Shown here piece by piece: positions 1,134 to 56,120 of a DNA stretch of 64,000 nt. The notes under the pieces are model-generated. The model was not told the DNA's origin. It saw nothing but the letters and a program-made list of their open reading frames with translations, and ran no database searches. The position numbers were made by a program, and so were the translations under genes. The stretch is from Planctomycetota bacterium (lineage in GTDB: Bacteria > Planctomycetota > JACOTG01), in contig JACOTG010000184.1 of assembly GCA_016178505.1 (NCBI GenBank), forward strand, positions 1 to 64,000, written 5' to 3'. Numbering within the stretch: position 1 is the stretch's first letter; every line of letters begins with the position of its first letter.

Positions 1134-1256
1134 GGGCGCGCGAGGATATCCGACGAAAGATCTCCGAAGGGGCTGGAATTTCGGTGCGGAGACGTCGTCG
1201 CACTACGCCATCGAATCGGCCAGCGAGTGGACGAACGCAGAATGGGAGGACTTGTC

Positions 1257-22817: not shown

Positions 22818-22977
22818 CCGGCTATTGGGGTCAGACCCCGGACGACGGGACGTGTGACCGACCCCGTCTACCGGCTATCGGTGCCAGGCACGCGCTGCCG
22901 GAATGGCTTCGTCACATGCCCCGGCACTCTTGGAGCATCGTCGTCGCCGTCGTTCTGTGCCTGGCACGATTAGCCGG
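22818..22977. repeat. REP/BIME-like palindrome cluster 1
   Basis: Three units occupy the gap between the Kelch gene and the end of tricorn 1. One is GGGGTCAGACCCC (22827-22839). A second, with GGCTATCGGTGCCAGGCAC inside 22871-22891, is repeated in inverted orientation with two differences at 22957-22977, making a 107-nt hairpin with 21-bp arms. The last unit ends 5 bp before the tricorn stop codon. The same modules recur at 26302-26349 and 34804-34980. Confidence 0.7.
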
Positions 22978-26301: not shown

Positions 26302-26349
26302 GGGTCAGACCCCAGACGACGGCGTTCCGGCTAACGGTGCCAGGCACGC
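26302..26349. repeat. REP/BIME-like palindrome cluster 2
   Basis: Just upstream of the tricorn 1 start lie GGGTCAGACCCC (26302-26313) and, after 13 bp, a unit with the core GGTGCCAGGCACGCGCTGCC (within 26327-26356). Module order and spacing match cluster 1. Confidence 0.68.
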
Positions 26350-30608: not shown

Positions 30609-30906
30609 TCGAACGTCCGCCGGCCGACGCGACGCGCGTCGAATTTCGCTGACCCGGCTTCACCGAAGATGTTGTATAGTGCTCGGCCATCGGTGACCCG
30701 GATGGGCGCCGACAGGATCACTGGAGAGTGGACAGCCGTTCTCGCTTTCGAGTGGTGATGGTTTTCTCGTTCTTTTCCGACGAGGCGGCGGCAGTCTGGA
30801 GCGTCGCCGCCTGCGGTCGAGTTGTACCGGACCTGCGGCTGGGCGCGTCGTCTGGCCACGTTCTCGGTTCGGTGCGTCGTTCTCTATCTTGCGAGGAGTC
30901 GTTGTT
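30609..30906 (+). other. Leader region upstream of the RRM gene
   Basis: No convincing ORF lies in these 298 bases. A TATAGT hexamer at 30675-30680 is the best -10 candidate, with only a poor -35 (CTGACC near 30649). If used, the RRM mRNA would have a leader of about 220 nt. Long leaders are known for cold-induced RNA-binding protein genes in cyanobacteria; that parallel is an inference. Confidence 0.35.
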
Positions 30907-31224
30907 TTGAAGATCTATGCAGGCAATCTGTCGTACGACACGACTGACGAATCCCTCCGCCAGGCCTTCTCGGCTTTCGGCGAGGTCACGTCGGCAAACG
31001 TCATCAAGGACAAGTTCAGCGGGCAGTCCAAGGGCTTCGGCTTCGTCGAGATGCCGAGTGCATCCGAGGCGCAGTCCGCCATCGATGGCCTCAACGGCCG
31101 AGACCTCCAAGGTCGCAAAGTTGCGGTGAACGAAGCCCGTCCGCGGGCCGAGGGCACGGGCGGCGGCGGCGGCGGCGGATACGGCGGCGGTGGTGGTCGC
31201 GCAGGCGGCCGCCGCGGCTTCTAG
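30907..31224 (+). CDS. Single-RRM glycine-rich RNA-binding protein
   Basis: The 105-residue protein is one RNA recognition motif with RNP2 KIYAGNLSY (2-10) and RNP1 KGFGFVEM (42-49). A glycine-rich tail with arginines follows (88-105, GGGGGGYGGGGGRAGGRRGF). Bacterial homologues bind single-stranded RNA and are often cold-induced. I chose the TTG at 30907, giving MKIYAGNLSY as in homologues, with GAGGAG 8 nt upstream; a longer frame starts at TTG 30889. The gene is monocistronic and ends in a clear terminator. Confidence 0.9.
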   Translation: MKIYAGNLSYDTTDESLRQAFSAFGEVTSANVIKDKFSGQSKGFGFVEMPSASEAQSAIDGLNGRDLQGRKVAVNEARPRAEGTGGGGGGGYGGGGGRAGGRRGF

Positions 31225-31309: not shown

Positions 31310-34300
31310 TCAGGGAACGTCGAACTCGACTTTCGCGGTCGTGGACGGAGTCACGGTCACGCGCTTCTCGATCGGTTCGATCCCAGGAACGGTGAGTCGC
31401 ACGACGTAGTCGTCGGGGGGAATCGCCATTCCCCAGTTGTCGAACGTCACGTGCTTCCACTCCCATGCGAGCGCACCCTCGCGCGTGCGGATCTCGAGCG
31501 TCGTTTCCGCCGCCAACTTCGCTTGCGATTCGGTCTTCGTCGGGTTCCCGCGACCGCGTCCGAAGAGGCGCTCGCCGCGCAGCTCGAGCTGGATGGTGCC
31601 GGCGGCGACGAACGGCAGCTCGAGGTCGAGATCGCTGACGCCTTCGGGGATCGAGAGGCGGCGATCGATGGGTGACGCGAACGTGACCGTGCGTCCGCCT
31701 TCGCCGCCCGAGTAAATCGTGCCCGCGTACTCCCAGCCCGGTTTCAATCCGGGCGTCGCGAACGATCCATCGCTCGCAACCGGCGCATACTCGCTTCCGC
31801 CGCCGTGGACTCCAAGAAAGACGATCTTCGCGTCGTTCAAGCACGCGCCGTCGGGCAGCCGCGCCACGCCGTGAAGCGTCACGCCGCGCTCGAGACGTAA
31901 GTCGAGCGGCGGGCTTGCGCCGCCTTGTCCGACGACGACGTCGCGTTGCACGAGAGGCGCGTAGCCGGGTGCCCGTGCGTACACGTTCCAGGTTCCGAAC
32001 GGCACCGACTCGAGGCTGAAACGCCCGGGTGAGCCCGAGAGCGTCGTCGTGCGGTTCGTACGATCGTTGTAGAGAGCGACCTCGAAGCGAAGAATCGGCG
32101 TGCCGCTTTGCCCGTCGTGAATCGAGCCTTCGACGCGAGCCGTCGGCTCCGACTCCGGATCGCGAGGGATCTCGAGGGTGAGACCGGTCGCATCGCTCGG
32201 GACGTTCGAGATGAAGGCGTGCGGATGCATCACGGTCCAGTAGTGCGCGGCGATGATGTGATACGGGCCCGGCGGAAGCCCGTGCGCTTCGAAGCGGCCG
32301 TCCGCGTCCGCGGTGATCTGTGCATAGCAGGCGAGTGGCGGCAGCGGAGTCGTTCGCGGTGATGACGAGGTGGAGGGGAGTAGGCTATCGATCGGAATGT
32401 CGCCGCGGTCGACGATGACCGTCGCGCCGTCAACGGCCGCGCCATCTCGGTAGAAGACGCGCCCCGACACGCGATGCTCGGGCTCGAGCATCACACGTAC
32501 CTCCGGCGGGTCGGTCGCCGAGGGCGCGAATTCCGGCGAGATCGCGATCGCGTGACCGACGGCCTCGACGAAGACACGCGCCGATTGAATCGATTCGAAC
32601 ACCATGAGCGCCGTGCCGTCCTCGTCCGTTCGTCCGGTCGGGTTTCCGAACCCATCTCTGCGAAGGAGCGCACCCCAGATGGGCTGCCCGTGCTCGTCCG
32701 CTACGTGGAAGACGGCGGCCGGAACCGTCGAGATTACGACATCCGGAGCGTTCGCTACGCGATCCGCGAGGACGTTCACTTCGACGGGCGCCGAGCTTCG
32801 GTTGTACGGCTGTTGCAAAACGGAGGCTCCAATCGCCACGACGCTTGCTGTAGTCCGCCATGCTGGAACGTCGGCAAGCTCGTATGCCCCCGATGCGTCC
32901 GTTAACGTTCTTCGTGCATGTGGAGTCAGCAGCACAGGGACAAAACCAACGTCGGGAATCGGCGGAAATCGTCGGATGTCTATCCTTGCGCCGGAGACTG
33001 GGGTCCCGAACGTGTCGACGACCCGTCCGCGAACGGTGGCCGTGCGACAGCACCGGAGCTCGACGTCGATCGTCGCGTCGTTGTCAGGGAGATCGAGGTC
33101 TTTTTTCGAAACGGCGTACCCATCCGCGAGCGTGCACAGACCGCCGAGATGGCGGGCCGTCATCGTGAGCGAGTGATCGCCCGCGGGATTCACGCCCCAC
33201 GCGGGCATGTGGGCGAATGCGAATGATCCGTCGGTCGCGGTCGTCGCCTCGCCGAGCACGCGCGGCGAGATCGGATTGCGAAGCCATGCGCCCGATCGAG
33301 TCGTGTGGGAGTACTCGTCGTCGTTCGACCACGCGATGACTCGGGCATTGGCCAGCGGCTCGCCGGTCTCTGCGTCGACGACGCGGCCGCGCAGGGTCGC
33401 GCCGCGAAGCAAGTACAGCGAACGCTCAGCGCCGTCTCGCCACGCGATGAACGACGGGCCGGCGAGGCACAGCGACGCCCACCCGTCCGCGGTCGCGAGG
33501 AGCGATTGGTCATACGGGCCGGTCGGGCTCTTCCACGTTGCCGACGGCAAGCCCTCGATGTGAAACGCTCCGTTCTTGCCGCTGACGGCCGAGCGCTCGA
33601 GCGCCGCGCCGAGGAAGAGTCCGCGCCACGCGACGCGCGCTCCCGCGACCGGCTCGCCGTCGAGGTTCTTCGCGACGCCGTCGATCGACGATGCGGGATC
33701 GAGCGTGATCGTTCGATCGTCCGCCGGGCGCACCGACTCGACGCCCGCCGGCGCGAAGCCTGTCGCATCGACGACGAGCGTGTGGAACGGCGCGTGCCCG
33801 CCGAGCGCGATCGTGAATCGCCCGCGATCGTCGGTGGTCGCGACGCGAAGGGGACCGGAGTCGGCGCGAGCTTGCGCGAGGTCGACGGCCTCTTCGACGT
33901 CGTCGGGAAAGCTGAAGACGCGCGCGCCCGCGATGTCGCGTTCGTCCCGGTCGACGACGTGCCCGTTGACGCCGTCGTTCGTGGCGACCGAAGCCACCGA
34001 TGCGCGTTCGCGATCGGACGGTTCGCTCGCGGTTGAGGCCGTCGTCGCCGCGCGCCGCCTTGCTCCGGAGTTCGCCGCGACGTTGACCGGTGTCGCGCGA
34101 TCTGACTGATCTCGCGTCACCCACCACGCGACGCCGAGCAGCACGACGACCGTCGCGGCGACGGCGGCAACATTCACTTTCGAGAACGCCGTGATCGGCG
34201 CGACGGGTGGGATGTCCTTCGGAAGCGCGATCGGAATCAGCGCGAGCGACCACGCGCGGCGATCGCCGTCGTGCGCATCGTCGAGCCTCCGCCGAAGCTG

Positions 34301-34765
34301 GTCGAGCGCGCGCATGAGGCGCACGCGCACGGTCGCCGCCGGGACGCCGGTGCGGCGCGCGATCTCTTCGGACGTCAGCTCCTCGAAGAAGTGGAGGAGG
34401 ACCGTCGAGCGGTACGGCTCGCCGAGCGTCACGACCTCTTCGACCACGCGGCGCTGGAGCGACACGCGCTCGACGAGCTCGGCGGCGGAAGGCACGGCCT
34501 CGGGTCGAGCGGCCGCGCGCTCGCGCCGCGGGCGGTGCGCTTCTTCGCGACCCGCGCGACGGGCCGCGTGTGCGACGACCGTCCGCAGCCACGACCGCAG
34601 CGCGCCCGCATGCCTCGGCGGATGCTGAATCGCCGCGAGCCACGTCTCCTGCACGACGTCGTCCGCGCGCGCTTCGTCGGCAACGAGCTGCCGCGCGAGC
34701 CCGCGCACCCACGCGGCATTCGCGAGCAACGTTTCCGGATCGATCGGTCCCCGACGGTCACTCAT
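31310..34765 (-). CDS. ECF sigma factor fused to a membrane segment and carboxypeptidase-regulatory-like repeats
   Basis: The 1151-residue protein begins with an ECF sigma factor: region 2 at about 10-75 (DEARADDVVQETWLAAIQHP) and region 4 at about 97-160 (SEEIARRTGVPAATVRVRLM). One transmembrane helix follows at about 198-216 (AAVAATVVVLLGVAWWV). The remaining 930 residues are at least eight CarboxypepD_reg repeats with the pattern G-x-V-x-D-x-x-G-x-P-V-x-G-A-x-V. The topology puts the sigma domain in the cytoplasm and the repeats outside, so it may sense an external ligand directly. No separate anti-sigma gene adjoins it. ATG 34765 is chosen; a GTG at 34804 lies inside a palindromic repeat. 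No good ribosome-binding site is visible. Confidence 0.87.
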   Translation of the reverse strand: MSDRRGPIDPETLLANAAWVRGLARQLVADEARADDVVQETWLAAIQHPPRHAGALRSWLRTVVAHAARRAGREEAHRPRRERAAARPEAVPSAAELVERVSLQRRVVEEVVTLGEPYRSTVLLHFFEELTSEEIARRTGVPAATVRVRLMRALDQLRRRLDDAHDGDRRAWSLALIPIALPKDIPPVAPITAFSKVNVAAVAATVVVLLGVAWWVTRDQSDRATPVNVAANSGARRRAATTASTASEPSDRERASVASVATNDGVNGHVVDRDERDIAGARVFSFPDDVEEAVDLAQARADSGPLRVATTDDRGRFTIALGGHAPFHTLVVDATGFAPAGVESVRPADDRTITLDPASSIDGVAKNLDGEPVAGARVAWRGLFLGAALERSAVSGKNGAFHIEGLPSATWKSPTGPYDQSLLATADGWASLCLAGPSFIAWRDGAERSLYLLRGATLRGRVVDAETGEPLANARVIAWSNDDEYSHTTRSGAWLRNPISPRVLGEATTATDGSFAFAHMPAWGVNPAGDHSLTMTARHLGGLCTLADGYAVSKKDLDLPDNDATIDVELRCCRTATVRGRVVDTFGTPVSGARIDIRRFPPIPDVGFVPVLLTPHARRTLTDASGAYELADVPAWRTTASVVAIGASVLQQPYNRSSAPVEVNVLADRVANAPDVVISTVPAAVFHVADEHGQPIWGALLRRDGFGNPTGRTDEDGTALMVFESIQSARVFVEAVGHAIAISPEFAPSATDPPEVRVMLEPEHRVSGRVFYRDGAAVDGATVIVDRGDIPIDSLLPSTSSSPRTTPLPPLACYAQITADADGRFEAHGLPPGPYHIIAAHYWTVMHPHAFISNVPSDATGLTLEIPRDPESEPTARVEGSIHDGQSGTPILRFEVALYNDRTNRTTTLSGSPGRFSLESVPFGTWNVYARAPGYAPLVQRDVVVGQGGASPPLDLRLERGVTLHGVARLPDGACLNDAKIVFLGVHGGGSEYAPVASDGSFATPGLKPGWEYAGTIYSGGEGGRTVTFASPIDRRLSIPEGVSDLDLELPFVAAGTIQLELRGERLFGRGRGNPTKTESQAKLAAETTLEIRTREGALAWEWKHVTFDNWGMAIPPDDYVVRLTVPGIEPIEKRVTVTPSTTAKVEFDVP

Positions 34766-34803
34766 CGAAGAAGGAAGAGCCACGCCCCGCCGAATCCGTT
34801 TCA

Positions 34804-34980
34804 CCGGCTATCGGTGCCAGGCACGCGCCGCCGAGCGAAGCCCCTCCGGCTATCGGTGCCAGGCACGAGCTGCCAAGCGGAGCCCTTCAATGTTCGCGTT
34901 GCGACGATGGCACCTCCCGATCAGCGAGCGAACACAGTACGAATGATCATTCCGTCGTCCGGGGTCTGACCCCATTAGCC
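34804..34980. repeat. REP/BIME-like palindrome cluster 3
   Basis: Two direct copies of a unit with the core CTATCGGTGCCAGGCAC lie at 34804-34824 and 34846-34866. GGGGTCTGACCCC (34961-34973), the reverse complement of the unit seen in clusters 1 and 2, is followed by ATTAGCCGGCGG. The last unit ends 7 bp before the tricorn 2 stop codon. Confidence 0.7.
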
Positions 34981-34987
34981 GGCGGGG

Positions 34988-37900
34988 TCATTTGTCGGCT
35001 TCGGGGATGCCCATGCCGGCGCGGTTGGGGTAGGCCGGGCGTGGGGGCGCGACGTAGGGGTGGTCCTTGATCTCCTGGAGCATGAGCGCGATTGCGGCGT
35101 CGAGCTGCGGGTCGCCGCCGTCCTGCATCTTCGAGGGGTCGTCGACGACCTCGATGTCGGGCGCGACGCCGTTGCCTTCGATGCCCCACGTGCCGTTCGT
35201 CTTGTAAAAGCCGAACGTCGGGACCGTGACTCCGCCGCCGTCGATCAGACCGGGGTTGCCGGAGATGCCGACGAGCCCGCCCCACGTCCGCATGCCGATG
35301 AGCTTGCCGAGCCCGGCCTGCCGGAAGTACGCGGGGAAGGCGTCGCCGCCCGAACCGGCCGATCCGTTGATGAGCATGCACTTCGGGCCTTGGTGCGAGT
35401 CGGGCGGCCAGCGCCAATCCTCGCCGTCGCGTCGCGCCCAGTAGTTCGTCACCGGGCGGCGCAAGAGCTCGATGAACCGCGTGGGAATCTGACCGCCGGC
35501 GTTCCACCGCTCGTCGATGATCAACGCGGCCTTGCCGATCTGACCGTAGAACTGGCGCACGAGCTCGTTCTGCCCATCGATGCCCGTGTTCGGAACGTGG
35601 ATGTAGCCGACTTTGCCGCCGGTGCGCGCGTCGACCGCGGCGCGGTTCTTCGCGACCCACGCGCGGTAGCGCAAGCTCGTCTCGTCGCCCGCCGGCTCCA
35701 CGAGAACCTCGCGCGCCGTGTCGTCGCGCGTCGGCTTCGCGCTCACGGTGAGCTTCACGACCTTGCCCGCGAGCCCTTGAAACGCGGCCCACGGATCCTT
35801 CTTCACGTCGACGTCGACGCCGTTCACCGCAAGCAAGTAGTCCCCCTCTTTCACGCCGAGCCCCGGTTGAGCGAGCGGCCCGTGCGCGTCGGCGTCATAG
35901 CCGGCGCCGCCGAGGATGTGCGCGATGCGGTACGCGCCATCGCGAAGCTCGAAGTCGGCGCCGAGCATGCCCACTGTTACCGTCGGCTCGACTTCGCCCG
36001 GGCCCGGCCGCACGTAGGCGTGCCCGACGTTCAGCTCGGAAATCATCTCGCCGATCACGAAGTCGACGTCCTCGCGCGACGCGCAGTCGGCGAGCATCGC
36101 GGCGTATCGCTCCCGCATACCCGGCCAGTCGACGCCGTGCATGTTCGGATCGTAGAAGAAGTCGCGCTGCAGCCGCCACGCATCGTCGAAGACCTGCTTC
36201 CATTCCTCGCGCGGGTCGATCGTCACGGTCATGCCCGAGGTGACGACGCTCTTTCCGGTCGCCCCAGCGGACGCGTCTTGAATCGTCGCGCCCTCGCCGC
36301 GGACGACGAGGATCTTCTTGCCGTCCGCGCTGACGTCGAAGTTCGAGGCGCCGCTCGCGACCGTCTTCTCCTCCTTCTTCTCGTCGCTCGGATCGAAGAT
36401 CTGGATCGACGGCGGATCCTGGGAGCCGCGCACCGGCTGCCGCGCGTAGAGGAGCGCGCCCTTGTCGTTGACGGCGAGCTTTCCGAACACGCCGCTCTTG
36501 ACGGGGAGAATGAGTGCGCGCGCTTCGAACTCGTCGAGGTCCACGGTGACTTTCTCGCGCGGCTTCTCGGCCGGCTTCGCGTCGGAGGACTTACCTGCGC
36601 CTTTCTCGGTTCGCGTCGCCGTGAACGTCAGCGTGAGGCCGAGCTTCGCGGCGGTTGCCGAGCCCGACGCGGACTCGCCGTCGACCTTTGCCGTCAGCGT
36701 CCATTCGCCGCCGGAGTCGTCGCGCAAGTCGCACGAGAGCGTCTTCGCCGCGGGGTCCCACTTGCCGCCCGTGATCGTTGCGGTCCCGGTGATCGACGAC
36801 GTGCTGCCGGTCACGGAGTGATCCGCCGTGACCGCGAGCGTCATCGTGAAATCGATGCCGCCCGAAGGGAACAGAGGCCCGCTCACCTTGCCCTTCCACG
36901 TGCCGGAGATTCCGTCGTCGGCCGGGGCGGTCGCGTCGTCGGGCTTCTTCTCGTCTTTCTTGTCGTCCTTTTTTTCGTCCTTCTTCTTGTCGTCGCCCCA
37001 GGTCTCCTCGTCGCTCTGCGGCGCCCACGGCGACTTCTGGTCGGCGCGCAGCGGCACCGCGAGAAGCACCTGCGTTCCCTCGTAGACGAACGACGTGTCG
37101 AGTTCGCCGTAGGTCGGATTGAACGAACGGCTCGACGCGAAGTAGAGCCAATCGCCCTTGCGGTCGAAGACCGGCGACGAGTCGGTGAAAAAGCCGCTCG
37201 TCACCTCGTGCGTCTCGCCCTTCGCGACGTCGTAGAGCCAGACCGATCGCGTGACCCGGCCCGCGACGTCGCGTGCGTACGCGAGCCAGCCGGAATCGTG
37301 CGACCAGCTCGGCGTGATCGGGTTCGCGCGCGCGTCGACGTCGATCTCCTTCGTTTCGCCGCCGTCGATCGTGTGGAGGAAGAGCGCGCCCGTCTTGTCC
37401 GAGAAAGCGATCTTCTTCGAGTCGGGCGACCATGTCGGCGAGTAGCGGAAGACGCGGCCGTCCTTCGTCAGTCGCTTGGTCTCGCCCTTGCCGTCGGACT
37501 GCGTCACGTAGAGTTCGTACTCGCGCGTCGCGTCGGAGAAGTAAGCGATCCATTTGCCGTCCGGGCTCCACTTCGGATCTCGCTCGGCGGTGCCCGGCGT
37601 GCGGGTGAGGTTGCGCGGCACGCCCTTGTCGGCGGGCGCGGTCCACAGGTCGCCGCGCGCTTCGATCACCGCGCGCTTGCCGGTCGGCGAGATCGCCCAC
37701 GCGGTGAGGTTCTTGCTCGCGTCGAACGAACGCGCACGCACCGTCGGACGATCGCCGGGAACCGTGACCTCGACCGCGTGGGACTTCCGCGTCGGCAAGT
37801 CGAGGAGCCACAGGCTCGAACCGTTTTGGAAGACGATCTCGCCGCCGTTGTCCGGACCGGGTCCGATCGACGGCCACTTCACGTCGTAGTCCTTGAACGT

Positions 37901-38656
37901 CGTGACTTGCTCGCGCCGCTGCGACTTCGTGTCGAACGACCAGATGTTGAGGCGATGCTCGGGCCCTGCGTCGGACAGGTAGTACACGACGTCGCCTTGC
38001 CACATCGGCAACGTGTCCGTGCCTTCCCAATCGGTGATCTTCTTTGCCGTCTTGCCCTCGAGATCGAAGAGCCAGATGTCGGTCGCCATGCCGCCTCGGT
38101 AGCGCTTCCACGTGCGTTGGTCCGCGGTGAGCAGCGTGTACGCGAGCCAGCGGCCGCTGCGATCGATGGCGCCGCTCGCGCCGTACGGAACGGGAAGCGG
38201 CTGCGGGAGGCCGCCCTCGGGCGACACCGTGAACAGCTGCCACTGTCGGGCGAGCCCGGCGAGCCCGGTCATGTAGAAGACGAGTCGGCCGTCCGGCGCC
38301 CAATCGCACAACGTCTCGGCGGACGGATGGTGCGTGATGCGCGTTGCCGTGCCACCCTCGACGGGGATCACGTAGAGGTCGCGGTTGCCGTCGTAGTTGC
38401 CCACGAACGCGATCTTCGAGCCGTCTGGGCTGAACTTCGGAAACGTCTCTTGGCCCGGCGGGCTCGACAACGGCGCGGCGACGCCGCCCGATCGCGGCAC
38501 CAGCCAGAGGTCGTTCGCGTAGCCGAAGACGATCTGCGAGCGGCTCACGTCGGGATAGCGCAACATTCCGGCGTGCGGCTTCACGTCGGTTTCGGCCAGG
38601 GCGACGGAAGAGAGGAGGGAGACGGACGCAAGCAGGACGGCAGGGACGATCTTCAT
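34988..38656 (-). CDS. Tricorn-type protease homologue 2 with an inserted beta-rich domain
   Basis: The 1222-residue protein has a signal peptide (ending LSSVALA-ET) and the same order as its paralogue at 22982-26284: PD40 propeller, tricorn C1-like region, PDZ (GDYLLAVNGVDVDVKKDPW) and S41 protease with ALIIDERWNAGGQIPTRF and LINGSAGSGGDAFPAYF. It differs by an insertion at about residues 582-680 (GISGTWKGKVSG to LTFTATRTEKG). The insertion is a small beta-rich domain bounded by lysine-rich linkers, at the point where the paralogue has only a linker. A periplasmic peptidase role is inferred from the signal peptide. A palindromic repeat cluster abuts its 3' end. Confidence 0.92.
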   Translation of the reverse strand: MKIVPAVLLASVSLLSSVALAETDVKPHAGMLRYPDVSRSQIVFGYANDLWLVPRSGGVAAPLSSPPGQETFPKFSPDGSKIAFVGNYDGNRDLYVIPVEGGTATRITHHPSAETLCDWAPDGRLVFYMTGLAGLARQWQLFTVSPEGGLPQPLPVPYGASGAIDRSGRWLAYTLLTADQRTWKRYRGGMATDIWLFDLEGKTAKKITDWEGTDTLPMWQGDVVYYLSDAGPEHRLNIWSFDTKSQRREQVTTFKDYDVKWPSIGPGPDNGGEIVFQNGSSLWLLDLPTRKSHAVEVTVPGDRPTVRARSFDASKNLTAWAISPTGKRAVIEARGDLWTAPADKGVPRNLTRTPGTAERDPKWSPDGKWIAYFSDATREYELYVTQSDGKGETKRLTKDGRVFRYSPTWSPDSKKIAFSDKTGALFLHTIDGGETKEIDVDARANPITPSWSHDSGWLAYARDVAGRVTRSVWLYDVAKGETHEVTSGFFTDSSPVFDRKGDWLYFASSRSFNPTYGELDTSFVYEGTQVLLAVPLRADQKSPWAPQSDEETWGDDKKKDEKKDDKKDEKKPDDATAPADDGISGTWKGKVSGPLFPSGGIDFTMTLAVTADHSVTGSTSSITGTATITGGKWDPAAKTLSCDLRDDSGGEWTLTAKVDGESASGSATAAKLGLTLTFTATRTEKGAGKSSDAKPAEKPREKVTVDLDEFEARALILPVKSGVFGKLAVNDKGALLYARQPVRGSQDPPSIQIFDPSDEKKEEKTVASGASNFDVSADGKKILVVRGEGATIQDASAGATGKSVVTSGMTVTIDPREEWKQVFDDAWRLQRDFFYDPNMHGVDWPGMRERYAAMLADCASREDVDFVIGEMISELNVGHAYVRPGPGEVEPTVTVGMLGADFELRDGAYRIAHILGGAGYDADAHGPLAQPGLGVKEGDYLLAVNGVDVDVKKDPWAAFQGLAGKVVKLTVSAKPTRDDTAREVLVEPAGDETSLRYRAWVAKNRAAVDARTGGKVGYIHVPNTGIDGQNELVRQFYGQIGKAALIIDERWNAGGQIPTRFIELLRRPVTNYWARRDGEDWRWPPDSHQGPKCMLINGSAGSGGDAFPAYFRQAGLGKLIGMRTWGGLVGISGNPGLIDGGGVTVPTFGFYKTNGTWGIEGNGVAPDIEVVDDPSKMQDGGDPQLDAAIALMLQEIKDHPYVAPPRPAYPNRAGMGIPEADK

Positions 38657-46966: not shown

Positions 46967-49684
46967 TCAGCGTCCTTTCTTCGCCGCCTCGATGACCTCG
47001 CGGATGCCGTCCCGGAGTTCGGCGGGTGCTTTGTCTGGGTCGTCGAGGTGGGCTTGCCGGAGGAGTCGGAGAGCCTCCGTCGCAGCGTGCGGCTCGCCGG
47101 ATTTACAGAGACCGATTGCGAGGTTGACGACACAGTTCGGGTCGGTGTTCTTGTCCGCGGAGACGTTCAGCGCGGCCTCCAACAATGCGTTCATCCGCCC
47201 GACCGTCGCTCCCGACGCACGATGCTCGGAGTAGAGGTAGAGGAGCGCGGAGAGCACGCTCAGGCTCCGATCACCACGATCCCACGCCTCGGCGAAAAGG
47301 CCGGCCGCTCGATCGCGATCTTCGTGCGAGGCATTGCCGCCGTCGCTGAAGCGATTGAAGACGCATGTGGCCAGCTCTTGACAGACGTCTTGGGTCGGCA
47401 CGTAACGGTGCGCGAGTTCGAGGAGACGAAACGCGTCGTCGTGCATTCCGTCGTAGTGGAGCCGGCGCACGATATCGACGATGAGCGCGGCGAAATGCGC
47501 GTTGCGAGCCAGGAGTGAGTCGTCGGCGAGAGGCAACGTGTCGAGGAGTTTCTCGCTCGCCCGCTCCGCATGAAGCAACTCGCGACGACACGCCACTTCA
47601 TCTTGCTTATCCGCCAGTGCCAATGCCCACTGCCGATGCGCGAGCGCCAGGCAGTACTGGATGCTGGTGTCCATCGGAAGGCTGTTACTTGCCCGTTCGA
47701 GATCGCGTACGGCGGACTCGAACTCGTCCGTGCCGAGCGCGATCACTCCTCTGACTCCGAGCGCGATCGCGTCGTCGGGGAATCGTTGGATGATGCCGCT
47801 GACCAACGCCTCGGCTTCGGGCAACGGCGTCGGATCTTCCAAGAGGGCCGACTGCACCATCAGTGCGTTCGCGAGGGCCACCTGGAATTTTGCATTCGCG
47901 GGGTCGAAGCTGCACGCCATCCGATAGTCGCGAACCGCCTTCAATGCCTCTTCGGGCGCGCCCAGCCGCCGCATGCACATCTGAGTGCGGGATTGACCTC
48001 GTTGAAACGCCACTTCCGGAGTCAGGTCGGATTCCGAGACGAGGTCGTACTCCTGCACGGCGCGAGTCCACTCGCCCTTCAGATGGAACGATAGGCCCCT
48101 GCCGATGTGCCACTCCTCGCTCTCCTGCGGAACGTGATCGCAGTAGCGTTCGATCGCTTCGAGCGCGATTCTCGGCTCGCCGAGAAGGTCGAGCACCGTC
48201 GCGTCCTCTCGATAGACGCCGATGAGATCCGGGTCGAAGCGCAGGCTCTTTTCGAATCGATCGTGCGCGCTCCGATAGTCGAGGCGTCGCTCGCAGCCGA
48301 GCCCGCACAGGAACTCGATCAACGCCTTCTCGGTATCCGGTCGTCCGGTCGGCTCGACGCCTTCGAACGGATCGGCGCCGATCTGAATCGCACCGACGAT
48401 TTTCGAATCGAGCCCGCGAGCCACGGCTTCGGCGAGGTTCTTCTTCGAATCGGACTCCCGGCGCTCCGCGATGGCGGTGAGCGCGCGAAACACGTAGTTG
48501 ATCGGGTTGTCGGGGTCGCTGTCGATCGCTCGGTCGAACTGCTCCCTGGCGTCGTCGATTCGACCGAGACCATAGAGCGCGACGCCGGATTGTCGTAGGC
48601 GGTCACCTCGGCGGCGTCGCGTTTCCGTGTCGCTTTGGCGGGTCCATCCGACGACGATCGCGCAGACGATCACGAGCGCAATCGCGCCGCCGATCGCCGC
48701 CAGCGGCTCGCCGCGTTCGCGAACGTGGCGCCAGGCGCGCGTCGCCGATGGAACGGACTTCGCTCGCACCGGCTGCCCGGCGACGAATCTCGCGAGATCG
48801 TCCGCGAGCTCCGCGGACGTCGCGTAACGGCGATCGGGCGCCTTTTCGAGACAGCGCAGCGCAATCCGGGCCAGCGGCTCGGGGATCGCCGAGTCGATCG
48901 CGCGCGGGTTCGGCGGCTGCGTCTCTCGAATGCGCTGAATCACGACCTCCGGCGCGCCGCTGCCGAACGGCGGGCGTCCCGTCAGGCACTCGAACAGCGT
49001 GGCTCCGAGGGAGAAGACGTCCGTCGCGAGAGCCACACCGTCATCACTCGGGGCGACCTGCTCGGGCGACATGTAGTCGGCGGTTCCGAGCATTTCGCCC
49101 GGGCTCGTCAGCGCCTTGCCGTCGTCGATGCGGGCGATGCCGAAGTCGGTCAAATGCGGATTGCCGTCGCGATCGACGAGCACGTTCGATGGCTTGATGT
49201 CCCGATGGACGATGCCGTGCTGGTGCGCGAGGTGGACGACGCTCGCAATCGGCTCGAGCGTTCGCGCGACGTCGCGGAAGAACGCGGCTTTCGCCTCGGA
49301 CGCGCGCTCGGCCGGGATCGGCGCCGGTGGCTCGGCGGAGATGAGCTCTACGAATGGACGGGAGCCGCGCACGGCGGCGCGGCGAACGATTTCGGCGAGC
49401 GACGCGCCCTCCACGGGCTCCATGGCGATGTAATGCACGCCGTCGCTCGACCCGGAGTCGAGTACTCGCACGATCGCAGGATGGTCCAGCGATGCGACCG
49501 TTCGCGCTTCACGTTGAAAGCGCTCGATGCGATCGGGTCGAAACGAGAGCTCGCGCGGAAGCACTTTCAGCGCGACGGTCGCAGACGTCCGCTCGTCCTC
49601 GGCGAGATAGACGTCACCCATGCCGCCACGTCCCAAAACGGCGCGAACGCGATACGGGCCAATTCGAGCGCTGCTGTCGGTCAT
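46967..49684 (-). CDS. Membrane Ser/Thr protein kinase 1 with TPR-like C-terminal region
   Basis: The 905-residue protein has a Hanks-type kinase domain (about 8-300): glycine loop LGRGGMGDVYLAED, catalytic lysine K40, HRDIKPSN at 160-167 and DFG at 180-182. An insertion of about 45 residues (about 100-140, ending AKAAFFRDVARTLE) lies before the HRD helix. A transmembrane helix at about 328-346 is followed by roughly 550 residues of TPR-like helical repeats (SGVALYGLGRIDDAREQFDR and others), presumably outside the membrane. ATG 49684 is chosen; an in-frame extension upstream has no kinase features. It is paralogous to the next two kinases and follows kinase 2 on the same strand. Confidence 0.92.
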   Translation of the reverse strand: MTDSSARIGPYRVRAVLGRGGMGDVYLAEDERTSATVALKVLPRELSFRPDRIERFQREARTVASLDHPAIVRVLDSGSSDGVHYIAMEPVEGASLAEIVRRAAVRGSRPFVELISAEPPAPIPAERASEAKAAFFRDVARTLEPIASVVHLAHQHGIVHRDIKPSNVLVDRDGNPHLTDFGIARIDDGKALTSPGEMLGTADYMSPEQVAPSDDGVALATDVFSLGATLFECLTGRPPFGSGAPEVVIQRIRETQPPNPRAIDSAIPEPLARIALRCLEKAPDRRYATSAELADDLARFVAGQPVRAKSVPSATRAWRHVRERGEPLAAIGGAIALVIVCAIVVGWTRQSDTETRRRRGDRLRQSGVALYGLGRIDDAREQFDRAIDSDPDNPINYVFRALTAIAERRESDSKKNLAEAVARGLDSKIVGAIQIGADPFEGVEPTGRPDTEKALIEFLCGLGCERRLDYRSAHDRFEKSLRFDPDLIGVYREDATVLDLLGEPRIALEAIERYCDHVPQESEEWHIGRGLSFHLKGEWTRAVQEYDLVSESDLTPEVAFQRGQSRTQMCMRRLGAPEEALKAVRDYRMACSFDPANAKFQVALANALMVQSALLEDPTPLPEAEALVSGIIQRFPDDAIALGVRGVIALGTDEFESAVRDLERASNSLPMDTSIQYCLALAHRQWALALADKQDEVACRRELLHAERASEKLLDTLPLADDSLLARNAHFAALIVDIVRRLHYDGMHDDAFRLLELAHRYVPTQDVCQELATCVFNRFSDGGNASHEDRDRAAGLFAEAWDRGDRSLSVLSALLYLYSEHRASGATVGRMNALLEAALNVSADKNTDPNCVVNLAIGLCKSGEPHAATEALRLLRQAHLDDPDKAPAELRDGIREVIEAAKKGR

Positions 49685-49775: not shown

Positions 49776-52493
49776 CTATCGCCGCCATTCGGCGAGGAAT
49801 CTCTCGACGTCGGTGCGCAATCCCACGGGCACGCTCGCGGGGTCGTCGAGGTGGGCACGACGAAGCGCCGCGAATGCCGCTGCTCTCGCGTCGACGACGC
49901 CCGAGCGAAGCAGGCCGCACGCGAGGTCGAGCGACTCCCCGGCAGCGAGGTCGGGCGGGCCGAGATCGCGAGTTCGACCGACCAACGTCGCGATGGTGAC
50001 GCCGCCCGACTTCGCTCCCGCGGCACCGCGCACCGTGAGGAGATGGAGAAGGGCGACGGACGCGCGGGCATCGTCGTCGCCGCGACGCCGCGCGGCGATC
50101 AGATGAGCGGCCGCTGCATCGACGTCCGCGCGGTCCGAGGCCGGCGCGGTCTTCGCCCGCGCAGCGAGCAATAGGCCGAGCTGGCGTTCCACGCGCGGAG
50201 TCGGAATCCGCGCTGCGGCGGCTTCGAGGAGGACGATGGCGGCGCCACGATCCGCATCGGCCTCGGCACTCGCCGCCGCCGCGTCGGCAACGACGCAGCC
50301 GAAGGGGGCGAGGCGCTTCGCGACGTCGTCGCTGGGGCTTCCTACTGTGGCAACGAGTTGTGCGCACGCTTGCGCCGCGTCGGACGCGGCTCCGCTCCGC
50401 AGGAGAGCGCTCGCATGGGCCAAGGCCCAGCGCGGATCGGATGGCTCGAGTTCGCGTGCGCGTGCGAACTCGGAGATCGCGCGGTTGCGGTTGCGGCTCT
50501 CGGCGAGGATTCCGGAGACCGCATGCGCATCGCCGTTCGCTGGCTCGCGCAAAAGGATCGAATCGACGAGCGACGAGGCTTCGCGTTCGGCCTCGGCGTC
50601 TCCCGTCGCGCCGGCGAGCCTCGCGAGCGCGCCAGCGAGATCGAGCTGTAGGATCGGGTCGTGCGAGCTGGCGCTTCGTGCGCGGCGCAGGTCGTCGATC
50701 GCGCGTGGCAACATCGACGCATCCCCGACCGCGCAGCGGCATTCACGGAGTGCGTCGAAGCTCTCGATCGCGCATTCGGCGCGAAGCCGAAGCGCGAACG
50801 GAGTGCTCAAGGTTTCGGTCAACGCGTCGAGCGACCGAATCGCAGCGTCGAATTCCCCCCGCGACTGCGCGACGAGGGCCGTTGCGATGGCGTACTCGGG
50901 CGCAACCGGTCGCAAGGCGCCACGGTACTTCGCAGCGGCCGCCGCTGCGTCGGCGAAGCGCCCGAGCCGGGCAAGCGCCACCGCGGCCCACGCGTGGGCA
51001 TCGGGCAGCGAATGCTCCCTGGAGACGCTGCGGCGAAACCAGACGACCGCGTCCTCGAAGCGACGCTCGCGCATGCATCGCCGGCCGATCAGGAACTGCA
51101 GTGCGACGGTCGCGTCGGGAGGCGTGACGGTTTCGTCGAGGAACTCTGGAATCGGCCCCTCGAGGGCGAGCATGAAACGCGCATCGAGGCCCGCACCGAG
51201 CGCAGCGCGAAGGTCGCGCTCGCCGTCGTCGCACCGATCCTGCGTGAACAACGCGACGCTGCGAAGCGCGAGGCCGAGTGCATCGCCTCGATCGCCTTCC
51301 ACCGCCGCGTCGAGATCCTTCAGCGCTTCGGTGACCTCGCCTGCGTCGAGCATGTGCCGAGCATTGACGCGCTTTGCTTCCGCGTCGAACCTTGCTTCGG
51401 ACGCGCGGCTTCGAACTTCGCTGATCGCGAGGGCGCCGATGGCCACTGCCGCGGCCGTCGCCGTCGAAGCGAGGAGCAGCCGCCAAGCGTTGGCGCGGGC
51501 GCGACGCCAGACGCGGAGCGACTGCGGAACCGCGCGCGCGAGGACCGGTTCACCTCGGCAGAATCGGCCGAGGTCATCGCCGAGTTCAGCCGCGGAGGCG
51601 TAGCGTTGCGCGACGGGCTTCTCCAAGCAGCGAAGCACGATTCGCGACAGAGGCTCAGGGACCTCCGGATCGATGGACCGAGGATCGGTGACGGGCGTCG
51701 TACGGATGCGACGCAGCACCTCGAACTGGAGGCCGGTACCGAACGGCGGTCGCCCGGTCACGCACTCGAAGAGCGTCGCGCCCAGGGAAAAGATGTCCGA
51801 GAACGGTCCCATCGTCGAATGGACCGGATCCGCCTGCTCGGGCGACGCGTAGTCGGCCGTCCCTACGAACTCGCCGGTGAGCGTGACCGGGACGCCGCCC
51901 TCGATGCGCGCCAGACCGAAGTCCGCGAGTCGTGGGCGACCGTCGAGGTGCAAGAGGATGTTGCTCGGCTTGACGTCGCGGTGGAGGATTCCGAGCTCGT
52001 GTGCGCGATGGAGGCCGCGCGCGATTTGCTCGATCACGCGCGCGACGTCGCGAAAGTACGCGACCTTCGCCGCCGAGCGTGCTTCCGGAGGCAGCGGATC
52101 CGGGAAGAGCGGCGGAAGGAGCTCCGCGAGCGGCCGCGCGCCGCGCATCGTTCGTCGCTGCAGGATCTCGGCGAGCGACGCGCCCTCGACGTACTCGAGC
52201 GCGATGAAGTGCACGCCGTCGACCTCGCCGCTGTCGTGCACCCGCGCGATCGCGGGATGATCGACCGAGCTGCACGCGCGCGCCTCCGCGAGGAATCGTT
52301 TGACCCGCCGCGGCCGAAACGCAAGCATCCGCGGCAGGATCTTCAAGGCGACCGCCGCTCCCGTGCGCGTGTCTTCCGCGAGGAAGACGTCTCCCATCCC
52401 GCCGCGGCCGATCATTCGCACGATGCGGTACGGCCCGATGCGCTCGGGGTCACGCGGAGGTGAGCTGCCGAAACCGACGGATGGCTCAGACAT
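49776..52493 (-). CDS. Membrane Ser/Thr protein kinase 2 with TPR-like C-terminal region
   Basis: The 905-residue protein has the same plan as kinase 1. The glycine loop is IGRGGMGDVFLAED, catalytic lysine K51, HRDVKPSN begins at 171 and DFG at 191-193. The same pre-HRD insertion ends AAKVAYFRDVARVIEQ. The transmembrane helix is at about 338-357 and a long alanine-rich TPR-like region follows (for example MLDAGEVTEALKDLDAAVEG). ATG 52493 gives a short tail before the kinase domain. Kinase 1 begins 91 bp downstream, so the two are probably co-transcribed. The divergent lipoprotein gene begins 121 bp upstream. Confidence 0.92.
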   Translation of the reverse strand: MSEPSVGFGSSPPRDPERIGPYRIVRMIGRGGMGDVFLAEDTRTGAAVALKILPRMLAFRPRRVKRFLAEARACSSVDHPAIARVHDSGEVDGVHFIALEYVEGASLAEILQRRTMRGARPLAELLPPLFPDPLPPEARSAAKVAYFRDVARVIEQIARGLHRAHELGILHRDVKPSNILLHLDGRPRLADFGLARIEGGVPVTLTGEFVGTADYASPEQADPVHSTMGPFSDIFSLGATLFECVTGRPPFGTGLQFEVLRRIRTTPVTDPRSIDPEVPEPLSRIVLRCLEKPVAQRYASAAELGDDLGRFCRGEPVLARAVPQSLRVWRRARANAWRLLLASTATAAAVAIGALAISEVRSRASEARFDAEAKRVNARHMLDAGEVTEALKDLDAAVEGDRGDALGLALRSVALFTQDRCDDGERDLRAALGAGLDARFMLALEGPIPEFLDETVTPPDATVALQFLIGRRCMRERRFEDAVVWFRRSVSREHSLPDAHAWAAVALARLGRFADAAAAAAKYRGALRPVAPEYAIATALVAQSRGEFDAAIRSLDALTETLSTPFALRLRAECAIESFDALRECRCAVGDASMLPRAIDDLRRARSASSHDPILQLDLAGALARLAGATGDAEAEREASSLVDSILLREPANGDAHAVSGILAESRNRNRAISEFARARELEPSDPRWALAHASALLRSGAASDAAQACAQLVATVGSPSDDVAKRLAPFGCVVADAAAASAEADADRGAAIVLLEAAAARIPTPRVERQLGLLLAARAKTAPASDRADVDAAAAHLIAARRRGDDDARASVALLHLLTVRGAAGAKSGGVTIATLVGRTRDLGPPDLAAGESLDLACGLLRSGVVDARAAAFAALRRAHLDDPASVPVGLRTDVERFLAEWRR

Positions 52494-53286: not shown

Positions 53287-56120
53287 CGACCGCATTTTTC
53301 GAGGACGTGACATACGTCGGCCCGAAGATCGGGGTCGATGCGCTCGACGTCGGAGAGTCCATGGGAGTCCAGTAGCCGACAGGCCTCTTCGATCGTTCCG
53401 ACTTCACCAGAGAAGGAAAGTCCAACGGCGAAGTTGACGATCTCGGATTGCGGCCAGGCCGCGACGTCGTCGAATTCTCGGCAATGGGCGATCAGGCGAT
53501 CGATCTTCTCCGGGCTCGACGAGGGCGGACGGAATCGCGCGTAAACATAGAGCAAGCTCACGTTGACGTGCGGGGTGTCGACGCCCAACGTCAGACAGTC
53601 CTCGAACGCGACCGCAGCGGCATCGAAATCGGTGGCCACCACCCGCGGTTCCTGAGCGCGATTGAAAAACTGCTCGGCCATCGCCAATCGAACGTGGGCG
53701 GTTCGAACTTTCGTCCACACTCGGTCGAGAAACCGCACTGCGGCGTCGAGATGTTGACGTGCCGGAGTGACCTGGGTGTCTCCGCTCACGACTCCTTGGA
53801 TGGGTGAGCGCGGAACTCCTGTTTCGACTGGTGAGATCGCGGGCGCATCACGGATCGTGCTTGCCACGAGGCCGGCGAGGATTCCGAATGGCTCGAGGCG
53901 AGCGCGCCATGCCGGATCGAACGATGGGAGGAGGTCGAAGAGTTCTTCCCAATGACTCTGTACAGCGAGCGTTTCCTGATCCGATCGCATGGAGTCGTGG
54001 GCTTTCATTGCCTCGTCACGAAGTTTTAGGTGCGAGCTGATCAGGAGCTGGAGGGCAGTAAGGCTGTGTGGTGCCGCCGAATGGGCGTTCCCGAACTCTT
54101 TCGTCGCGGCATCTTGGTCACCGCGGATCGAGCGAAGACGTCCGAGGAGGATCAGGGCTTGGTAATCCCGTCGATCCCCATCGATGAGTGACTGAATTTG
54201 ATCTTCGGCTGCCGAAAGCAACGAATCGTCGTGCCGGGCCTGACCGAGAAGCAGGTACGCGGTTGCCCGAGCGGTACGAATGTCGCGATTGTCGGCGTCG
54301 CTCTCGAGCCCGCGTTCGCTTTCGTCGATAGCGAGGCGCAACCAGTGCGGATCGGACGGTCTCGAGAACTGGAAGCGATCGATGAAGAGAACGCTGCGAA
54401 GCTCGCGAACGTACGGGCTCACGTCGCTCGCCGGGACGCGATCGAGCACACTCATGGCTTTCTCGAAGTCGTTGGTCAATCGGAACTGAAGCGCATCACC
54501 GATGAGCGAGGGAGCGGCGCGGGACGCAACGCTGCGACCATACTCTTCGAGATCCGCGGCGGCGTTGGCCCATCGGCCGAGGCGGTCGTATACGATGGCC
54601 CGTTGGAGGAGCGGGGCGGCGAAGCTGGGATTCAATTCGATGCTCCGGTCCAGATAGAACAACGCCTCGTCGTGACGGTGTCTCATGACGAGGACTTCGG
54701 CGAGGAACAGGTCCAATAGTGCTGCCGCTTCTTTGTCTCCAAACTCCGGCTGGACATTCGGAACGGGGTCGGATTGGAGATTCTTGAACGCATCGAGCTG
54801 CTTGCTGAGCCCAAGGTGCTCGGCGAGCTCGATCTCGTTTCGAGTGTCCATGCCCTCGCCAGCCAATGCAATCGCTTTGAAGACGTGGTTCATCGGTTCG
54901 GACGACCAGGTGTTCATCGCTTGGTTCAGAAGCGCGATCGCTTTTCGGTAGTCGAGGTAAGTGATCTCCGTGATGGCGCGCTCGCGCAAAGCAGCTGCCG
55001 CCTGGCGAAGTCGCTCCCGGTGATTCATCGAAACGATGACGACGATCGTGGTGGCTAGTGCCGCCGCGACGACGAGGCCGATGGTCGCGGCCACGCGCCA
55101 CCGCCGCGGCCAGAGTCGGCGACCCGCCTTCAGGACGGCCGGGACCGATCGCGCCCGAACGACATTGCCCGCGACGAAGTTCGCGAGATCGTCGGCGAGA
55201 TCCGCCGCCGATGAAAAACGCCTCGCAGGTTGCTTCTCGAGACAGCGAAGCGCAATTCGCTCGAGGGGCTCCGGGACTTCGGGGTCGATGGCTCGCGGGT
55301 CGCGCGGCTGCGCCTCTCGGATCTGCGTCAAGAGTTCCGGGGTGTCTGCGCCGTCGAACGGGGGCCGTCCGGTCAGACATTCGTAGAGCGTCGCGCCGAG
55401 CGAATAGACGTCCGAAGCAGGGACGACGTCGTCGCGGCGTCCGAAGGCCTGCTCGGGCGAGGCGTACGCGGGAGTGCAGGGGTTCACGTTGCTCGACGTG
55501 AGCGGCTGGCCGCCCTCGATTCGCGCGAGCCCGAAGTCGCACAGCCGGGCGCGGCCGTCGCGATCGAACAGGATGTTGCTCGGCTTGATGTCGCGGTGAA
55601 GGATGCCGTGCTCGTGAGCCTGGGCCAGCGCCCGCGCGACGTCCGCAAGCACGACCCCGACGTCGCGAAAGTAGGCCGCTTTCGAAGTCTTGCGCGCGCC
55701 GTCCACCAGCGGCTTCGGGGCGGGATCGGCGAGCAGCTCGGCGAACGAGCGATGTCGATCGGGCCGCGCGCGGTGAATGACGTCGGAGAGCGAGCCGCCG
55801 TCAAGGACCTCCATCGCGAAGTAGTGATAGCCTTCGCTCACGCCGCTGTCGTAAACGCGAGCGATCGCGGGGTGGTCGAGCATGCCGGCGGCCTTGGCCT
55901 CGGTCACGAATCGCTCGATGCGGTGTGGCTTCAGTGCCAGGTCGCGCGGGAGGATCTTCAACGCCACGGGGATCTGCGAGCGCTCGTCCGTTGCGAGGTA
56001 GACGATGCCCATCGCGCCGCGACCGAGTGGTTTCGAAATGCGATAGGGCCCGACTCGCTCTGGCTCGGCCGAGCCGCCGGCACGCGTGACCGTCGTGGGG
56101 ATGCGGTCGTCTGCGCACAT
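53283..56120 (-). CDS. Membrane Ser/Thr protein kinase 3 with TPR-like C-terminal region
   Basis: The 945-residue protein repeats the plan of kinases 1 and 2. The glycine loop is LGRGAMGIVYLATD, catalytic lysine K55, HRDIKPSN begins at 175 and DFG at 195-197. The pre-HRD insertion ends TSKAAYFRDVGVVLAD. The transmembrane helix is at about 342-364. The C-terminal region carries clear TPR units (ALFYLDRSIELNPSFAAPLL, AIVYDRLGRWANAAADLEEY). All three kinases end in a related short helix, here DPDLRADVCHVLEKCGR. ATG 56120 has AGGAG 12 nt upstream; an alternative start is 56177. Confidence 0.91.
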   Translation of the reverse strand: MCADDRIPTTVTRAGGSAEPERVGPYRISKPLGRGAMGIVYLATDERSQIPVALKILPRDLALKPHRIERFVTEAKAAGMLDHPAIARVYDSGVSEGYHYFAMEVLDGGSLSDVIHRARPDRHRSFAELLADPAPKPLVDGARKTSKAAYFRDVGVVLADVARALAQAHEHGILHRDIKPSNILFDRDGRARLCDFGLARIEGGQPLTSSNVNPCTPAYASPEQAFGRRDDVVPASDVYSLGATLYECLTGRPPFDGADTPELLTQIREAQPRDPRAIDPEVPEPLERIALRCLEKQPARRFSSAADLADDLANFVAGNVVRARSVPAVLKAGRRLWPRRWRVAATIGLVVAAALATTIVVIVSMNHRERLRQAAAALRERAITEITYLDYRKAIALLNQAMNTWSSEPMNHVFKAIALAGEGMDTRNEIELAEHLGLSKQLDAFKNLQSDPVPNVQPEFGDKEAAALLDLFLAEVLVMRHRHDEALFYLDRSIELNPSFAAPLLQRAIVYDRLGRWANAAADLEEYGRSVASRAAPSLIGDALQFRLTNDFEKAMSVLDRVPASDVSPYVRELRSVLFIDRFQFSRPSDPHWLRLAIDESERGLESDADNRDIRTARATAYLLLGQARHDDSLLSAAEDQIQSLIDGDRRDYQALILLGRLRSIRGDQDAATKEFGNAHSAAPHSLTALQLLISSHLKLRDEAMKAHDSMRSDQETLAVQSHWEELFDLLPSFDPAWRARLEPFGILAGLVASTIRDAPAISPVETGVPRSPIQGVVSGDTQVTPARQHLDAAVRFLDRVWTKVRTAHVRLAMAEQFFNRAQEPRVVATDFDAAAVAFEDCLTLGVDTPHVNVSLLYVYARFRPPSSSPEKIDRLIAHCREFDDVAAWPQSEIVNFAVGLSFSGEVGTIEEACRLLDSHGLSDVERIDPDLRADVCHVLEKCGR

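Follow-up and report, generated by a model that had tools for sequence, protein, structure and literature searches.

The question raised by this locus is how a sigma factor that forms one polypeptide with a membrane helix and a large ectodomain could be controlled, and whether such a chain is a genuine gene product. ECF-dependent envelope sensing in bacteria mostly relies on separate sigma, anti-sigma and protease parts; in the family described here, the sensor and the sigma factor share one chain, in tens of copies per genome. The first-pass annotation of the analysed stretch (64,000 nucleotides of a Planctomycetota contig, referred to below as the window) had read the gene as a sigma domain followed by one transmembrane (TM) helix and more than 900 residues of CarboxypepD_reg repeats, and had proposed a one-component transmembrane switch. 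The parts of the gene are as follows.

31310-34765, reverse strand: coding sequence of the tethered ECF sigma factor; 1151 aa when read from the first ATG
34541-34723, reverse strand: sigma region 2 with the DDVVQETW motif (Pfam PF04542)
34295-34432, reverse strand: sigma region 4 (Pfam PF08281)
34226-34267, reverse strand: conserved juxtamembrane motif GDRRAWxxALxPL, a predicted helix (residues 182-193) in the interval between sigma region 4 and the membrane
34172-34207, reverse strand: site of the internal Shine-Dalgarno (SD) sequence and ATG/GTG of most relatives; the window copy is without the SD
34115-34171, reverse strand: single TM helix, residues 212-230
33980-34114, reverse strand: extracytoplasmic low-confidence linker (AF2 pLDDT ~30), putatively the site-1 cleavage region
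31313-33979, reverse strand: all-beta ectodomain of CarboxypepD_reg repeats

Residue numbers refer to the 1164-aa frame that begins at an upstream GTG (31310-34804, reverse strand). In this protein, Sigma70_r2 (28-88) and Sigma70_r4_2 (125-170) exceeded the Pfam cut-offs, as did CarboxypepD_reg, with 181.6 bits in six stretches, and the TM prediction gave one peak at 212-230 followed by an ectodomain of 934 aa, so that the layout and topology initially proposed were borne out. The DDVVQETW motif is intact, its D and Q being invariant columns among 57 relatives, and the Pfam scan found no match to sigma region 3 in the window protein. TIGR02937 was likewise over cut-off, with an NCBIfam placement at the level of the ECF superfamily only. 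With regions 2 and 4 and no region 3, the protein is an ECF (group 4) sigma70 factor. The charge flanking the TM helix, positive inside, fits a cytosolic sigma domain. An AlphaFold2 model of the sigma and TM part (57 relatives) reached a pLDDT of 90.5 and places the parts in the order sigma region 2, sigma region 4, short helix (182-193), loop, TM helix. ECF sigma factors head its matches in the PDB, several of them in complex with anti-sigma or polymerase; the low global TM-scores are expected for two mobile domains. The structural model, in which the sigma reading might have failed, thus upheld it. In the full-length model the part outside the membrane is all-beta, with the low-confidence linker directly after the TM helix. 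The ectodomain folds match pilin, adhesin and S-layer beta modules and alpha-2-macroglobulins, all with low TM-score, and the ectodomains of the window protein and its paralogues contain only beta-sandwich repeat families by Pfam. An enzymatic or ligand-specific ectodomain was rejected on these grounds, and we therefore name no ligand.

The genome (7.16 Mb) holds 94 sigma region-2 matches, about 28 of which belong to proteins with a sigma domain, a juxtamembrane stretch, a TM helix and a long ectodomain; CarboxypepD_reg was present in 19 of the 25 own-genome members that were scanned. A search of 244 Planctomycetota genomes gave strong matches to the family in many, scores in most of the remainder staying at a generic ECF level, and 133 members from the phylum were taken into the family analysis (a discovery set of 57 and an independent set of 76). 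A frameshift or chance join of two genes, the former having been named as something that would refute the reading, is excluded because ~28 paralogues, and members throughout the phylum, are built in this way. The juxtamembrane motif is conserved as well (W in 39/57, P in 40/57). No clear split version of sigma domain and ectodomain was found among the 133 members or the matches listed from the phylum search, where the short open frames reaching the juxtamembrane region sit at contig ends and a single match (G194:C225) ends directly past the sigma domain; the fusion is therefore the stable state. Among the papers searched, none mentions a carboxypeptidase regulatory-like domain together with a sigma factor, although the 2021 ECF reclassification or the 2012 planctomycete ECF papers might mention one, and this is apparently a large family of Planctomycetota that has so far been undescribed.

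The idea of a tethered ECF factor in one chain already has precedent, and the family is a variant of it. IutY of Pseudomonas putida (ECF243) combines, like the window protein, an ECF sigma factor and a membrane sensor in one chain, and is freed by Prc and RseP (PMC8999054). It includes a FecR-type anti-sigma part and works in iron cell-surface signalling, whereas the window protein carries CarboxypepD_reg beads, and Pfam found no FecR-like region in it or in the scanned paralogues. The actinobacterial ECF52 (SCO4117 of Streptomyces coelicolor), ECF48 and ECF53 share with it the order of sigma domain, TM helix and a long outer part that includes a binding-type domain, and release by cleavage has been proposed for them (PMC5826349). 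ECF52, however, combines a zinc finger ahead of its TM helix with a carbohydrate-binding module and a stretch rich in proline. The zinc-finger anti-sigma domain that these three groups have between sigma domain and TM helix was not found in the window protein by Pfam or listed for 24 paralogues, and the window ectodomain contains CarboxypepD_reg and no carbohydrate-binding module by Pfam. ECF52 has moreover been described from Actinobacteria only and is single-copy in S. coelicolor, in contrast to the ~28 copies per genome and the nested start found here. The planctomycete ECF57 factors resemble the family in phylum, in large C-terminal extensions and in many paralogues, but their extensions are WD40 repeats, proposed for protein interaction (PMC8999054, PMC8567305), rather than a TM helix and an external beta-sandwich array; Pfam found no WD40 repeats in the window protein or in scanned paralogues. 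The one-component switch first proposed, with a putatively ligand-binding ectodomain, is thus supported in part: the intact sigma domain, the one TM helix with positive charge inside, and the lack of an adjoining anti-sigma gene or conserved partner all agree with it, but its kind was already known from IutY and from ECF48, ECF52 and ECF53 (PMC8999054, PMC5826349).

We consider it fairly probable that these proteins are cleavable one-piece transmembrane sigma switches and that in most members the gene also makes a sigma-less receptor. The juxtamembrane helix and the one TM helix would keep the sigma domain at the cytosolic surface of the membrane, with the CarboxypepD_reg ectodomain outside. 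A change in the state of the ectodomain (through ligand, partner or damage) would open the disordered linker beyond the membrane to cutting by a site-1 protease, after which an S2P-type intramembrane protease would cut within the TM helix and set the sigma part free. The freed factor would then recognise TGAACC-type promoters, including its own, resulting in an autoregulated switch. Of this picture, the sequences establish the layout, the family, the internal start signal and the promoter enrichment; cleavage, the ligand, the use of the two starts and the part played by the short form are inferred.

An analysis of the 25 own-genome copies revealed that the family genes mostly stand alone as single-gene units, and neither a conserved operon partner nor an anti-sigma gene or dedicated protease was found among 38 neighbours, so that all three were dismissed as candidates. 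Because no neighbour is shared, the switch is probably self-contained as judged from gene context. A Tricorn-type protease (PD40 repeats, PDZ, S41; 34988-38656, reverse strand) does lie directly upstream of the window gene on the same strand, and S41 proteases are the site-1 enzymes of the IutY system, but this neighbour is not repeated at other family loci.

Tethered one-component regulators such as ToxR and CadC are well known, and the sigma domain could similarly act while bound to the membrane, with no proteolytic release. This would agree with the missing dedicated protease or anti-sigma gene nearby, as well as with the interval between sigma and TM helix, where no inhibitory domain was recognised and Pfam gave no anti-sigma domain for the window protein. 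Nonetheless, IutY and ECF52, one-chain factors that have been experimentally studied or modelled, are thought to act by release (PMC8999054, PMC5826349), the genome contains genes for S2P and rhomboid proteases, and a long disordered linker lies directly outside the TM helix. We thus regard membrane-bound action as distinctly unlikely and retain release by cleavage as the working model.

The promoter region bears on how such a switch might be wired. The first-pass annotation had suggested a conserved promoter motif upstream of the gene itself as something to look for, and the window contains the following candidate.

34780-34803, reverse strand: candidate ECF-type promoter TGAAAC-N13-CGTGG, approximate, with one mismatch to the family's TGAACC

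The -35-like TGAAAC begins 38 nt before the ATG, a distance that suits the family motif. A gapped-motif search confined to own-genome upstream regions gave raw counts at noise level, and the signal became clear only once the upstream regions of relatives were joined to these. TGAACC then occurred upstream of 30 of the 133 members against 4.75 expected (largest count 12 in 200 shuffles), and TGAAC-N15-CGG upstream of 10 members against 0.49 expected. Where a TGAACC site could be related to a start codon, 14/25 lay 37-43 nt before it. In the genome the extended motif occurs 21 times compared to 2 for the reversed control, with 4 of the 21 directly before family genes. The motif is found in only part of the family; its presence before the sigma ATG of many members implies autoregulation, that is, that TGAACC-type promoters may be recognised by the family's own sigma factors, those of their own genes included. 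With the well-established spacing of ECF promoters, the transcript would begin within ~10 bases of the sigma ATG, in keeping with the lack of a good SD before this ATG. Translation of the sigma-bearing form therefore probably starts at a near-leaderless end, and that of the short form described below at a true SD.

The family size, the juxtamembrane motif and an internal start in most relatives had not been mentioned in the initial reading, and the last of these, a conserved nested start signal, is the surprising and new part of the sequence analysis. In 86/133 family members, an in-frame ATG or GTG stands at the TM helix behind an SD sequence. Own-genome members have GGA-GGA or GGA-Gxx codons, then after a few codons an in-frame ATG/GTG, M-x-x-K and the TM helix, and the same pattern was seen in other genomes. 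In the discovery set, a GGAGG/AGGAG-type SD preceded the internal start in 25/57 members, compared to 4.1 expected from synonymous codon shuffling (largest 9). The independent set, fetched once the internal-start hypothesis existed, had an SD of at least 4 bases in 50/76 members against 12.5 expected. The GGAG lies at -12 to -9 relative to the start. Among Gly codons 3-5 codons upstream of the internal-start Met, 74/99 are GGA, compared to only 23/168 upstream of other internal Mets (p 5e-24). Met makes up ~6-7% of the ten residues before the TM helix and ~1% elsewhere, a ~7-fold enrichment present in both sets. The fourth codon after the GGA-G codon (n=88) was ATG in 44 cases, GTG in 14, TTG in 3 and GTC in 3, GTG being favoured although GTC is the commoner Val codon, and 14/17 Val codons at the start position are GTG against a 36% background. 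In the same genes, an SD precedes 58-62% of ATGs beside the TM helix but 10-11% of ATGs elsewhere. Finally, folding computed in 44-nt windows gave ~-15.5 kcal/mol upstream and -9.1 at the internal start, dropping again downstream, whereas at this site members without the signal reach -13.3 and synonymous shuffles -11.4 (sd 0.31).

The signal directly precedes the TM helix in every member having it, and for E. coli it has been proposed that SD-like sequences close to TM segments cause pauses, so that it might serve as a translation pause aiding membrane insertion with no start site. However, a pause needs no start codon, yet Met is enriched and GTG favoured among Val codons at the right spacing, and initiation sites typically show the kind of mRNA opening seen here. 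Moreover, none of 23 same-genome Ser/Thr kinases with a cytosol-TM-ectodomain layout had a strong SD before the TM helix, and these had 3 Met in the 230 residues before it; an SD-like sequence as a general trait of proteins with this topology was thereby rejected. A pause is in our estimate highly improbable, and we take the signal to be a candidate site of translation initiation. The genome has ~90 kinase-domain matches in all, many with a TM helix, and three Ser/Thr kinase domains lie in the window (48815-49654, 51597-52430 and 55206-56045, all reverse strand) in open frames of ~1000 codons each.

In a tree built from the sigma domain only, members with the internal start occur on every branch and the signal has changed many times, and about a third of the members are without it. 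A separate deep sigma clade (L063, L093 and L094, at C226:29151, C264:2379 and C42:6109) has its own juxtamembrane motif, PNVESxxRS...VP, yet the same GGAGGA and ATG/GTG internal start. In the window copy, an SD-led start before the TM helix was looked for and is absent, the site reading ACG GCG TTC TCG AAA GTG AAT. The window gene groups in the tree with its two nearest paralogues, C71 and C313, at up to 65% identity, and both of these carry the internal start; the signal has most likely been lost in the window copy. The internal start, being absent here and in roughly a third of members, is therefore not essential for every member.

The window also encodes an ectodomain protein that has no sigma domain, noted by the first-pass annotation and found to be real.

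1257-3410, forward strand: sigma-less ectodomain paralogue that begins M-K-...-TM followed by CarboxypepD_reg, its start resembling the internal start of fused genes
1245-1250, forward strand: Shine-Dalgarno GGAGGA of this paralogue, 6 nt before its ATG

The start at 1257 reads GGAGGACTTGTC-ATG. Elsewhere in this genome, many CarboxypepD_reg genes without a sigma domain likewise have an M-x-x-(K/R)-TM N-terminus behind a similarly spaced SD, one ribosome-binding site reading GGAGGATCGTCG-ATG. No sigma remnant was found in the own frame of these genes, so that broken fused genes were rejected as their origin, with the exception that separate sigma genes lie close to three of them. One further locus (L295, G000:C70) has a split arrangement, a separate ECF sigma gene and then a TM and CarboxypepD_reg gene with a short cytosolic N-terminus, and this pair resembles a canonical sigma/anti-sigma pair.

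These genes raise the possibility that the internal GGAG...ATG is an unused relic of an in-frame fusion of a sigma gene with a gene for a secreted protein, only the tethered sigma factor being made. That one genome holds both fused genes and sigma-less genes that start in this manner fits such an origin, as do the fused members, the window copy included, that have lost the signal. On the other hand, in each of two independent sets the GGA codons, the ATG/GTG choice, the spacing and the open mRNA are retained to a degree that synonymous shuffles do not reach. The signal is also kept despite wide divergence, the sigma regions of relatives being 24-57% identical to that of the window copy, and this persistence counts against a relic because a relic should decay. 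We consider this origin quite improbable, and use of the internal start remains our preferred interpretation.

In-frame internal starts that yield a short isoform occur in bacterial genes, for example the CheA short form, which resembles the present case in that one ORF gives two products through nested initiation. To our knowledge, nested initiation is not known for tethered sigma factors, and unlike that of CheA the nested start found here is conserved across a large paralogous family. In most members, one mRNA would thus carry two starts. The tethered sigma factor would come from the sigma ATG, which has hardly any leader, and an ectodomain anchored in the membrane but lacking sigma would come from the SD-led ATG inside the gene. 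Through the short form, the cell would control what share of its receptors bears a sigma domain; this form might enter mixed assemblies, compete for ligand or protease, or be a building block of the surface layer that is sensed. The window copy retains the long form only, and the sigma-less paralogue at 1257-3410 is a separate gene. We see a little better than an even chance that, throughout this phylum-wide family, a single autoregulated mRNA carries a near-leaderless sigma-receptor start and a nested SD-led sigma-less start, with the ratio of signalling to silent receptors set by translation alone.

In a different function, the sigma factor would report the export or assembly of its own ectodomain, an uninserted or unassembled ectodomain leaving sigma free to turn on genes, its own among them. 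The autoregulatory-type promoter, the resemblance to pilin, adhesin and S-layer beta modules and the ectodomain-only form would all suit such a reporter, but the structural role is only putative and the fold matches are of low TM-score, and we regard this function as unlikely. For the cleavable switch with a nested start, the prediction is that one message also yields a receptor acting as a decoy or in a structural role, and the family allows a clear test of the silencing of tethered sigma factors and of the control of receptor stoichiometry. It also bears on annotation, since automatic gene calls give one protein where two are likely.

Two minor observations concern the surroundings of the window gene. 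Directly before it lie two tandem 42-bp copies of the repeat GTGCCTGGCACCGATAGCCGG (34804-34885, reverse strand), a dispersed intergenic repeat that is also present at 22871-22891 and 26327-26347 (both reverse strand) and whose 17-base core has 24 copies in the genome when one mismatch is allowed. The gene is also adjoined by one for a small RNA-binding protein of the RRM type whose tail is rich in glycine (30889-31224, forward strand).
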